Shown piece after piece: positions 6,535-10,217 of a stretch of 64,000 nucleotides of DNA (positions within the stretch are counted from its first letter, which is position 1; every line of letters starts with the position of its first letter). Both the position numbers and the translations under genes were made by a program. Where the stretch lies: assembly GCF_019303535.1 (NCBI RefSeq), contig NZ_JACCIU010000002.1, forward strand, positions 124,001 through 188,000, in the 5' to 3' direction. The notes under the pieces were generated by a model. It was not told where the DNA came from and did not search any database. It was given only the letters and a program-made list of their open reading frames with translations. The DNA is from Lactobacillus sp. Sy-1. GTDB lineage: Bacteria > Bacillota > Bacilli > Lactobacillales > Lactobacillaceae.

Positions 6535-7473
6535 ATGGATAAAATGAAATTACATAACTTTAAAAATAATCGTAAATTGTTTGTTTTAGGGGCAGTTACA
6601 CTTGGTGTCTTAACGACTGGGTATGCTGAAAATAAAGCTCCTGTATATGCACATGCTGATACTACTAGTGCTGCTAGCGCTACTAGTACGACTAGCTCAT
6701 CAAGCGCCACTAGTGCTGCCAGTACTACTAGCGCCACTAGTTCCACTAGCAGTGTTGCAACTAGTCAAAGTGCCGCTCAAGCTAATTTAGCTAGTTACCG
6801 CAGTAGTACCTTAGCATCCATTCAAGCTAGCTTCTCAGTAGCTGGTTCAGTGGCTAGCGCTGCTAGTGCTACTTTATCAGATAATAATGATTCAATTAGT
6901 GATGACTTTGCTCAATTAAGTGACACCTACGCTGATGCAACTGCAGCTAACCAAAAGAAATATGGTAGTCTTGCTAACAGCGCTGCTGCATTTAAATCTT
7001 ATCGGGACTACGCTAAACAGGCCTTTAGTGGATTTAACAGCGCCACTAGTGACTTTAACAATGCGATTGTAAATGCTAGAAACTTAGTGAGCCAATTTGC
7101 ACAGGTTGATAGTCAAGCAGCAGCTGGTAATATTTCTGCTAGCTATGAAACATCCGTAACTAATTCACTAGTTGCCCAAGGATCTAGTCAAGCAAGCACT
7201 GCTAATAGTGCTGCTTACTACACTAGCAGTGTTGCTGATGCCGTTTCATCATTTGCTGATGATTATGAAAATACGGTTAATTCACTAACTACTAAGCTAA
7301 GTAGTAAAGCCACTACTTCAAAGAAGACCACCAAGGCTAAAGTTGCTAAGGCCAAGAGTGATGTTAAGAAGTACAAGGCCAATGTAAAGAAGGCTAAGAC
7401 CACTAAGGCAAAGGCTACTGCTCAAAAAGCGTTAAAGAAAGCTAAAGCACAACTCAAAAAGTTAACTAAGTAA
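6535..7473 (+). CDS. Secreted Ser/Thr/Ala-rich protein with Lys/Ala-rich tail
   Basis: The 312-residue protein has three parts. A long N-terminal signal (about residues 1-43, KLFVLGAVTLGVLTTGYA within it) is followed by a low-complexity Ser/Thr/Ala stretch (about 45-85). The middle (about 85-260) is Ala/Ser-rich and probably helical, with regularly placed Asp, Asn and Tyr. The last 50 residues are Lys/Ala repeats (KKAKAQLKKL type) with a strong positive charge. There is no LPXTG anchor, so the tail may bind wall polymers by charge (inference). The Ser/Thr region is built from repeated ACTAGT and GCTAGC hexamers. The start has GGAGG upstream. Function is unknown. Confidence 0.75.
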   Translation: MDKMKLHNFKNNRKLFVLGAVTLGVLTTGYAENKAPVYAHADTTSAASATSTTSSSSATSAASTTSATSSTSSVATSQSAAQANLASYRSSTLASIQASFSVAGSVASAASATLSDNNDSISDDFAQLSDTYADATAANQKKYGSLANSAAAFKSYRDYAKQAFSGFNSATSDFNNAIVNARNLVSQFAQVDSQAAAGNISASYETSVTNSLVAQGSSQASTANSAAYYTSSVADAVSSFADDYENTVNSLTTKLSSKATTSKKTTKAKVAKAKSDVKKYKANVKKAKTTKAKATAQKALKKAKAQLKKLTK

Positions 7474-7509
7474 TTATTGATAATTAAAAATTAAATATTA
7501 GTTATTAAT

Positions 7510-7546
7510 AAAGCCCATTCGGTAGTTTCACACCGAGTGGGCTTTT
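7510..7546. terminator. Bidirectional terminator
   Basis: AAAGCCCATTCGG pairs with CCGAGTGGGCTTTT around a 10-base loop, giving T runs in both directions. It ends the rightward secreted-protein gene and the leftward two-peptide transcript. Confidence 0.85.
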
Positions 7547-7553
7547 AATTTGG

Positions 7554-7634
7554 TCATTTGGTCATTATTTTAAGAAAATGTGTATAGCACTTATTATCAT
7601 CTTGATATAGCAGTGGATTAAAAATTAACCGCAT
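7554..7634 (-). CDS. 26-codon ORF, second gene of the T-box peptide transcript
   Basis: The ORF encodes a 26-residue peptide that begins MRLIFNPLLYQDDNK, holds one Cys and ends IMTK. The start has a perfect GGAGG six bases upstream, which is the main evidence that it is translated. It begins about 50 bp after the 47-codon ORF and stops eight bases before the shared terminator. There is no recognisable domain. It may be a real small protein, a remnant of a longer gene, or chance; the ribosome site argues against chance. Confidence 0.45.
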   Translation of the reverse strand: MRLIFNPLLYQDDNKCYTHFLKIMTK

Positions 7635-7684
7635 CTAAATCCTCCGAGATTGATTAAATGGCAAGCTTATTAGTGAAGCCGGTT

Positions 7685-7828
7685 TTAAAAATAAAGGAAA
7701 AAGAAAACCTCTTCAATATCACGTTTTATTATTTCCAACCCCCACTTTTCAATATGATTGAATAGTTTAAAGCCCTTTTTTGGTGTTTCGTTAATTTTTT
7801 TAATGTTAGTATCGTTTGCATTTGTCAT
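7685..7828 (-). CDS. 47-codon ORF directly behind a T-box
   Basis: The ORF encodes MTNANDTNIKKINETPKKG, then a segment with KLFNHIEKWGLEIIK, ending in a Phe-rich hydrophobic tail (EEVFFFLYF). An AGGAG site lies nine bases before ATG 7828; the ATG at 7834 is only three bases from the site and is less likely. It is the first ORF after a full T-box leader, so its synthesis should respond to one uncharged tRNA. I do not recognise the sequence. The C-terminal half could form an amphipathic helix with a hydrophobic end, as in small membrane-associated peptides. Confidence 0.55.
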   Translation of the reverse strand: MTNANDTNIKKINETPKKGFKLFNHIEKWGLEIIKRDIEEVFFFLYF

Positions 7829-7860
7829 AATCATCCACTCCTAATTGGTTTATAAAAATT

Positions 7861-8139
7861 AAAAACGTCCTCCATGAATTGACTAGCTCCAATAGCTATA
7901 TTCATGAAAGGACGTTTTTTCAACGTGGTACCACCTTTATTTACTGATCAGTATAGTTATCAGCCTCGCTAAACACATAAGTGTTAGATTGCTATAAAGG
8001 GAATCAACCTGAATTTCTCGAAAAAAATTCAACCGAATGTAATCTTTTGACTGATCAGACATTACATTCTTTCACCACATGAATGCTCGCTATCAAATGA
8101 CTGGTCGGTTACTAATATATACATCGTTTTATCTAATAT
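7861..8139 (-). promoter_or_regulatory. T-box riboswitch upstream of the two tiny ORFs
   Basis: On the minus strand the leader has the T-box GGTGGTACCAC (7925-7935; one base departs from the common CCGCG ending). It also has a Stem I distal hairpin (CATTC, loop with GGTGAAA, GAATG) and an AGTA element. A terminator/antiterminator pair follows, AAAACGTCC with GGACGTTTTT. The specifier lies within AAAAGATTACATTC, but I cannot fix the codon (GAT, ATT or a Lys codon are possible). The structure looks complete, not decayed. Confidence 0.88.
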
Positions 8140-8145
8140 GAGTGG

Positions 8146-8174
8146 ATAATATATGAATTATTTTAATCTGTCAA
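8146..8174 (-). promoter_or_regulatory. Promoter of the T-box peptide transcript
   Basis: Perfect TTGACA, a 17-bp spacer and TATTAT on the minus strand, placed directly before the T-box leader. Confidence 0.7.
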
Positions 8175-8692: not shown

Positions 8693-9006
8693 CATTAAAT
8701 CAAAAGTTAATATTAAAAATCATTTTAAATACATGAAAAAGTAAAATTTAAGAATTTTTCAGAGAGCATTGATTAGTTGAAACAATGTACTTTCTTAAAG
8801 GTTGAAAAATCTGTATTAGTTTGAGCTTTTCTAGAGGAGCTTGGGTGTGACGACCTTTATCTGCGTCTGAGTATAAGCATTTAGTTGTCGTACTCAAAGA
8901 GGTTGATTACGTGAGTAGTCAGCGAATAAAGGTGGTACCGCGTTAAAACGTCCTTTCCTAAACTAAGTTATTCAATAACTTAGTTTAGGAAAGGACGTTT
9001 TTTTTG
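8693..9006 (+). promoter_or_regulatory. T-box riboswitch upstream of leuA, probably leucine-responsive
   Basis: GGTGGTACCGCG lies at 8931-8942. The terminator (8946-9006) is a perfect inverted repeat of about 27 bp around a three-base loop, followed by eight Ts, unusually long for a T-box terminator. The upstream part pairs AAAGGT (near 8796) with ACCTTT (near 8850), but I do not see the usual GGTGAAA distal loop, so Stem I looks atypical. Leucine specificity is inferred from the genes; CTT occurs at a plausible specifier place. Confidence 0.85.
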
Positions 9007-9035: not shown

Positions 9036-10217
9036 ATGACAACTAGTAATGATAAGATGATTCAGATTTTTGATACTTCCCTTCGTGATGGTGAACAAAC
9101 CATTGGAGTTAACTTCTCAATCGAGCAAAAGATTCAAATTGCTAAGCAGCTAGAAAAATGGGGCGTTGATATCATTGAAGCAGGATTTCCAGTTGCTTCT
9201 CCTGACGACTTTAAAGCCGTTAAAGCGGTTGCGGAAAATGTTGATCATGCTTGTGTTACCGGATTAGCCAGAGCCAAAAAGGCAGACATCGATGCATGTG
9301 TTGAAGCAACTAAGAATGCTAAGAACAAACAAATCCATGTGTTCATCGGAACGAGCCCAATCCATCGTGAATATAAATTGCATATGACTAAGGCTGAAAA
9401 CTTAGCAGTAATTCGGAAGTGCGTTAGTTACGCTAATCAATTCTTCGATAAGGTGCAGTTTTCACCGGAAGATGCAACCAGAACTGAACCAGAATACTTA
9501 GTAGAAGCAATTAACGTAGCAATTGATGCTGGGGCAACGGTAATCAACATTGCTGACACCGTTGGTTATACCAATCCAATTGAATTCGGAAGGTTATTCG
9601 ATTACATGCGTGCTAACGTTCCACGCTTTGATGATGTGATTTTCTCAGTTCATTGCCATGATGACTTAGGAATGTCCGTTGCAAATGCAATTGCCGGCGT
9701 GGAACATGGCGCATCCAGAATTGAAGGAACTGTGAATGGAATTGGGGAACGGGCTGGTAACACCGCCCTTGAAGAAGTGGCTGCTGCGTTTATGGTCCGG
9801 AGTGATTACTACCCATATAAGACCAATATTAACTTAAAAGCAACGAAGGAAACTGCTGATATGATCAGTGAATTTACCAGGATGCCAATTCCACATAATA
9901 AAGCAATCATCGGTCAAAACGCATTTTCTCATGAATCAGGAATTCACCAAGATGGAATGCTAAAGAACCGGAACACATATGAAATCTTAACCCCAGAGTC
10001 AGTTGGAATGGATGCTACCCACATCATATTAGGAAAACTATCTGGTTCACATGCGGTAATGCAAGAATTACAAAAGATGGGATATGAAGTTGATCGAGAA
10101 GCAATGGCAACAATTTTCCCAGAATTTAAAAGGGTTGCCGATAAACAACCCATTGTAAACGATCACGACCTGGCTTCAATTATGAAAAAGATAGGGGTGG
10201 TTGCGAATGCCAAATAG
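9036..10217 (+). CDS. leuA: 2-isopropylmalate synthase, short form
   Basis: This enzyme joins acetyl-CoA and 2-ketoisovalerate, the first committed step to leucine. The catalytic barrel is clear: IFDTSLRDGEQTIGVNF at the start, the metal histidines in SVHCHDDLGM and the NGIGERAGN loop. ATG 9036 is chosen over GTG 9027 because TGGAG lies at good distance. The protein has only 393 residues, against about 500-520 for usual LeuA. It ends after the linker subdomain and lacks the C-terminal leucine-binding domain. leuB overlaps its end, so no domain is lost to a frameshift downstream. Feedback control is probably absent, leaving the T-box as the main control. Confidence 0.92.
   Translation: MTTSNDKMIQIFDTSLRDGEQTIGVNFSIEQKIQIAKQLEKWGVDIIEAGFPVASPDDFKAVKAVAENVDHACVTGLARAKKADIDACVEATKNAKNKQIHVFIGTSPIHREYKLHMTKAENLAVIRKCVSYANQFFDKVQFSPEDATRTEPEYLVEAINVAIDAGATVINIADTVGYTNPIEFGRLFDYMRANVPRFDDVIFSVHCHDDLGMSVANAIAGVEHGASRIEGTVNGIGERAGNTALEEVAAAFMVRSDYYPYKTNINLKATKETADMISEFTRMPIPHNKAIIGQNAFSHESGIHQDGMLKNRNTYEILTPESVGMDATHIILGKLSGSHAVMQELQKMGYEVDREAMATIFPEFKRVADKQPIVNDHDLASIMKKIGVVANAK

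Follow-up and report, generated by a model that had tools for sequence, protein, structure and literature searches.

A T-box leader ahead of a candidate small-protein gene divergent from leuA in Lactobacillus sp. Sy-1

Organization of the T-box transcript

The window analyzed here, a 64,000-nucleotide stretch of the genome of Lactobacillus sp. Sy-1, carries on its minus strand a promoter, a T-box leader with a competing terminator, and two small open reading frames, ORF1 and ORF2, on the far side of which lies a further hairpin (Table 1). On the opposite strand is leuA, with a T-box leader of its own. A sequence-only reading of this region had described the promoter as strong and the T-box leader as complete, and both descriptions were borne out. 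The promoter was the top scorer of the 10 promoter-like sites that a consensus scan found between positions 7450 and 9050, a number without excess over shuffled sequence (mean of 10.5); the corresponding region of a sister species (genome G001) likewise showed no excess. The leader matches the RF00230 covariance model from end to end (model positions 1-219), with a score below the Rfam gathering score of 93, as is also the case for 20 of the 38 T-boxes in the same genome. Like other T-box riboswitches, it has the apical AGCGAG and GGUGAAA motifs and the T-box GGUGGUACC, and a T-box sequence with UGGN and a competing terminator were both found. Folded alone, the Stem I stretch was not more stable than its shuffles (z 0.4); the minimum-energy Stem I folds (z 0.4 and -0.95) gave pairings that are not those of a T-box and were left out of the specifier reading described below.

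Table 1. Features of the T-box transcript, the neighboring leuA unit and the counterpart locus in the sister species (G001)
Feature	Position	Strand	Details
Sigma-70-type promoter, TTGACA-17-TATTAT	8146..8174	-	11/12 consensus letters
T-box leader RNA with Stem I, specifier loop, and T-box AAAGGUGGUACCACG (RF00230)	7905..8133	-	71.5 bits, E 4.7e-15
Competing leader terminator hairpin (folded stretch)	7855..7926	-	-25.9 kcal/mol, z -5.2, 0/200 shuffles as stable
ORF1, candidate small protein, 47 aa, conserved C terminus	7685..7828	-	AGGAG upstream; 57-aa counterpart in G001
ORF2, 26 aa	7554..7634	-	GGAGG upstream; no G001 counterpart; no Pfam/NCBIfam family
End-of-transcript hairpin (folded stretch)	7500..7548	-	-20.8 kcal/mol, z -6.6; poor T tract
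leuA T-box leader	8716..8958	+	80.5 bits; divergent neighbor, probable parent of ORF1 leader
leuA (2-isopropylmalate synthase-like)	9036..10217	+	Pfam HMGL-like and HCS_D2; 84% identical protein in G001
G001 promoter, TTGACA-17-TATCAT	L070 6360-6332	-	11/12 consensus letters; just upstream of T-box
G001 small ORF, 57 aa	L070 5878-6051	-	counterpart of window ORF1

ORF1 has 47 codons when read from the ATG at position 7828 and 49 from an alternative ATG two codons upstream. Neither ORF1 nor its counterpart in the sister species matched any family in Pfam, PHROGs, or NCBIfam, and neither peptide contains cysteine. An AlphaFold2 prediction (mean pLDDT of 72.9, pTM of 0.37) places a helix at residues 16 to 46 of ORF1, which we take with moderate confidence. 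The transcript had been proposed to yield two tiny products and to end in a terminator, and each proposal stood in part. ORF1 is conserved, but a search of all three forward frames in the sister region turned up no counterpart of ORF2; ORF2 is probably not a gene, and because it is not conserved, the product of the transcript is best counted as one protein. The final hairpin is stable and begins eight bases past ORF2, but its T tract is poor and it is absent from the terminators named by the consensus scan.

A T-box in front of so short a reading frame is unusual for this genome. The 2.04-Mb source genome contains 38 T-boxes, for each of which we sought an ORF starting within 600 bases downstream. 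Within that distance, 37 of them are followed by a reading frame of 217 amino acids or more; the sole exception is the leader of ORF1.

Conservation and distribution of ORF1

The sister species, which is the sole other genome of the genus compared, encodes a LeuA protein that is 84% identical to that of the window, and its leuA is also preceded by a T-box. On the strand opposite to leuA, and at nearly equal distance from it, lie a promoter, a T-box, and a 57-codon ORF that are divergent from leuA. This T-box scored 66.8 bits against the covariance model, its leader terminator folds at -22.7 kcal/mol (z -7.6), the ribosome site before the small ORF is kept, and the leader is 61% identical to that of ORF1 over 380 nucleotides. 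The outcome named in advance as counting against the locus, that neither ORF is conserved together with the leader, was looked for here, and ORF1 was found with its leader. After the sister ORF the consensus scan named no terminator, and the stretch there folds at chance level overall (z -1.1). The left flanks of the two loci differ, with a convergent 341-amino-acid ORF in the window versus a 334-amino-acid ORF in the sister species, neither of which has a Pfam family above the cutoff.

The two small proteins end in a common pattern, I..WG......D.E..FF[FY]LYF-stop. Their local alignment score of 57 was reached by 1 of 5,000 shuffles (mean of 22.5, standard deviation of 4.4). Over the last 22 codons, which align free of gaps, the two share 10 residues as well as the stop codon and differ at 12 residues; 5 of the 10 shared residues carry silent changes, one of them CTT/TTG for leucine. 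The N-terminal halves hardly align at all, and overall identity is 36%, versus 84% for LeuA. At the DNA level, the likeness of the two ORFs was reached by 5.6% of codon shuffles, and the differences in the last 22 codons fall at codon positions 1, 2, and 3 in the numbers 11, 6, and 10, so that the third-position excess is not strong. Strong likeness in protein combined with weak likeness in DNA is the pattern expected of coding constraint, and we take the tail of ORF1 to be under such constraint, a reading drawn from two sequences, which are too few for a rate test. A search with ORF1 alone placed the sister locus at an E value of 0.2, with unrelated places elsewhere ranked better; what makes the counterpart convincing is its position, strand, and leader rather than this search score.

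We then searched more widely with a profile of two rows, ORF1 and the sister peptide. At an E value of 0.5 or below, 73 of 397 genomes drawn from the family matched, the source genome and the sister species included; at 0.01 or below, 4 of 395 genomes drawn from the order matched, with the source genome included and the sister species absent. The two samples overlap. Eight of the weak matches and 10 further stretches were inspected by sequence, and the remaining matches were judged on frame length or stops. No inspected stretch closes with the FF.LYF tail, even in a looser version; one of them (L250) contains a string resembling the T-box core, but without a tail of this type. No further homologue of ORF1 was accepted from the 397 family and 395 order genomes. 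A looser tail pattern, run over loci L072 to L179, gave four listed matches (L096, L097, L106, and L177), of which none has FF.LYF and one (L106) is antisense to a T-box. The leuA neighborhoods compared comprised at least 80 named loci, with near relatives of the window left out. In plasmids and viral contigs, 268 stretches fitted one pattern, none was confirmed, and no relative of ORF1 was found. A literature search conducted mostly at the level of abstracts showed no published account of the gene among the papers listed.

Because the sister species keeps the same arrangement, we read ORF1 as a real small gene and not as debris, and because it is conserved there while no other homologue was accepted, as a gene restricted to the genus and not as a decayed transporter. 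We therefore hold with moderate confidence, since the case rests on two sequences, that ORF1 is probably a genuine small-protein gene under T-box control, genus restricted as far as is visible. The switch is of a known kind, and its predicted output is new to the libraries searched.

Relationship to leuA and alternative explanations

The T-box of leuA lies 582 bases from that of ORF1 on the opposite strand. When the 38 leaders of the source genome and two of the sister species were compared, the ORF1 leader was closest to the leuA leader of the sister species (62% over 363 nucleotides, E value of 1e-22), followed by the neighboring leuA leader (64% over 308 nucleotides, 3e-22). Within its own genome the neighboring leader is the closest, the other 36 being less similar. 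Its own counterpart in the sister species came third, behind both leuA leaders (8e-13). The leader of the sister small ORF, in turn, is closest to that of ORF1 (8e-13) and then to the leuA leaders (4e-11 and 2e-9). The start regions are also alike, and the small ORF of the sister species shares its first eleven bases, ATGATTAATGC, with the leuA of that species. This closeness to the adjacent leader, together with the similar start regions, points to an inverted duplication, in which the leader and start region of ORF1 were probably copied from leuA. The resemblance has limits: leuA encodes an enzyme, and the catalytic LRDGEQ stretch is missing from both ORF1 and the sister peptide.

If the leader and the 5' end of leuA were duplicated in inverted orientation, the copy might simply be drifting, with ORF1 as the functionless remainder of the first 50 leuA codons. 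The leuA-like leader and start region fit such a decaying duplicate, and so does the protein itself, as ORF1 resembles LeuA residues 25 to 48 (IEKWGLEII versus LEKWGVDII). Aligned with the N-terminal 80 residues of LeuA, it scored 46, which none of 2,000 shuffles reached (mean of 21.5). Against an N-terminal LeuA profile of 31 sequences (29 of 80 named loci, those with the cutting motif, plus the source genome and the sister species), ORF1 scored above all 500 of its own shuffles, yet below one shuffle of the sister peptide. As a possible fragment of the LeuA/HMGL family, it gave no Pfam match at an E value of 1 or below. The sister copy, however, has no clear likeness to LeuA: its scores were reached by 2 to 11% of shuffles, and it matched the profile with an E value of 0.07. 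LRDGEQ is found in neither copy, and the FF.LYF-stop tail, with its silent changes, is not present in the corresponding part of LeuA. In both species, moreover, the promoter, the T-box, and the leader terminator have stayed intact, as is not expected of a dead copy. We thus consider a decaying duplicate unlikely.

The locus might instead act through its leader RNA, for instance as a decoy for tRNA or as a small RNA, with ORF1 incidental. This reading would agree with conservation of the leader between the species and with the terminated leader RNA that rich medium would yield. It leaves the conserved C terminus with its silent changes and the kept ribosome site unexplained, and we regard it as very improbable. 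Less probable still is that ORF1 is a piece of some longer gene already known. Most T-boxes control genes for transport, biosynthesis, or synthetases, and in Liquorilactobacillus satsumensis (L103) a gene upstream of leuA that by eye is aminotransferase-like has a T-box in front of it. ORF1, for its part, has the same stop codon in both species. The decayed transport gene that the sequence-only reading had offered as its plain alternative found no backing, given that ORF1 matches no Pfam, NCBIfam, or PHROGs family and that the one transporter considered, AbgT, is unmatched in the genome. The latter had been suggested by eye from the pattern KKGF.LFN.IEKWG...FFFLYF and was dropped when PF03806 gave no match in the source genome or the sister species; across 60 genomes, the same model matched five at an E value of 0.001 or below, three above the cutoff. 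An ilvE remnant, prompted by the T-box in L103, was also dropped: the N terminus of that aminotransferase is unlike the ORF1 peptides, with alignment scores that 1,143 and 528 of 2,000 shuffles reached.

The LeuA proteins themselves differ in length. From DTTLRDGEQ onward, 378 to 381 residues were counted among the listed matches in the sister species, Lactobacillaceae UBA5807, two Companilactobacillus, and L. satsumensis, and the LeuA of the window is likewise short; 15 of the 16 other listed loci (L104 to L119) have 492 to 514 residues, and the remaining one (L107) has 364. From these low residue counts, the short group lacks a C-terminal part, which we take to be the leucine-sensing domain. 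In L100 (at about 960-1200) and in L103 (3710-3856), a short ORF ending in SQLQALLL stands before leuA and resembles a leucine leader-peptide attenuator. No T-box was found directly before leuA at either locus, with 1.2 kb of upstream sequence available for L100. The type of leucine control seems to differ between genera.

Specifier codon and proposed role

The specifier columns of the Rfam model fall on AGA (Arg) in both the window and the sister leaders, in register. The alignment is confident in the sister species, but in the window it is poor and of low posterior, and AUU (Ile), shifted two bases downstream from AGA, is a rival triplet there. For calibration, we used nine T-boxes of the source genome whose genes were named by eye from their translations, with an Ile codon counted as expected for a BrnQ-like gene. 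The columns gave the expected codon in seven of the nine; a tyrS-like gene was one base off, and a hisS-like gene read GAC. The discriminator base of tRNA-Arg(UCU) is A, whereas those of the Asn and Asp tRNAs are G, and since an A suits UGGU, arginine is possible as the amino acid sensed. ORF1 and the sister peptide contain one and no Arg and six and four Ile residues, respectively, counts that are too small to decide the specifier. On this sequence evidence, AGA is somewhat probable as the specifier of the window leader and is slightly favored over AUU, which is possible and would fit a leucine/isoleucine setting. The AAAGAUU stretch recurs in the T-box before a panE-like gene, in the source genome and the sister species alike, and brings with it the same ambiguity between AUU and its adjacent triplets.

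Among known systems, the closest in logic is anti-TRAP, a small cysteine-rich zinc protein. In Bacillus subtilis, its gene has a Trp T-box; it is listed as T-box controlled (PMC2494555, Table 2), and T-box control of this small regulator has been described (PMC7430163). The likeness is that a T-box governs one very small protein, which makes anti-TRAP a precedent in logic with an unrelated protein. In contrast, the specifier of the ORF1 leader is other than Trp and, because ORF1 lacks cysteine, it has no zinc site like that of anti-TRAP; ORF1 is not a member of anti-TRAP. A second, possible parallel is LBA1071 of Lactobacillus acidophilus, entered as "Ile related hypothetical" behind an Ile T-box (PMC2494555, Table 2). 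It too is a hypothetical protein behind a T-box in a lactobacillus, and among the papers searched it is named in that one only.

Antitermination of T-box leaders by uncharged tRNA is established. At the ORF1 locus, an uncharged cognate tRNA, for Arg if the specifier is AGA or Ile if it is AUU, would stabilize the antiterminator and let transcription continue into ORF1. Its translation, a step that we infer, would then make a helical protein of 47 to 57 amino acids that might act as a starvation-response effector, with the conserved D.E..FF.LYF tail as the putative working part, binding a partner or the membrane. Taken as a whole, the proposal would be that ORF1 is a young gene, born of an inverted copy of the leuA leader, whose starvation-induced helical product regulates a partner, perhaps in the leucine pathway with its short LeuA. 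We offer it tentatively, as possible but doubtful.

If the starvation-effector reading is true, the leader and ORF1 would form a circuit from T-box to small regulator that arose independently of anti-TRAP. Annotation that relies on T-boxes presumes that the controlled gene serves to make, import, or charge an amino acid. A T-box followed by only a conserved tiny protein may instead mark a starvation regulator or effector that gene finders miss. The ORF1 case would also suggest that duplication of a neighboring leader can give rise to a new regulated gene.

Several other T-boxes and tRNA genes were noted in passing. In one other T-box transcript (L022, G000:C2:270185-270429, minus strand; G000 is the source genome), a 32-codon ORF separates the leader from an ORF of 277 amino acids. 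The T-boxes at 528-764 on the minus strand of the window (L001) and at L187 precede proteins that, by eye, are amidohydrolase-like (beginning MSKTLFVNFHLFNG and MSKTGFINANIFDG), an unusual class of target. Another, at L186, stands before a ketopantoate-reductase-like gene, also named by eye, and both gene and leader are kept in the sister species. Finally, L223 (G000:C1:345650-346450) holds six tandem tRNA-Asn(GTT) genes, and the sister species has five tandem tRNA genes of equal score.
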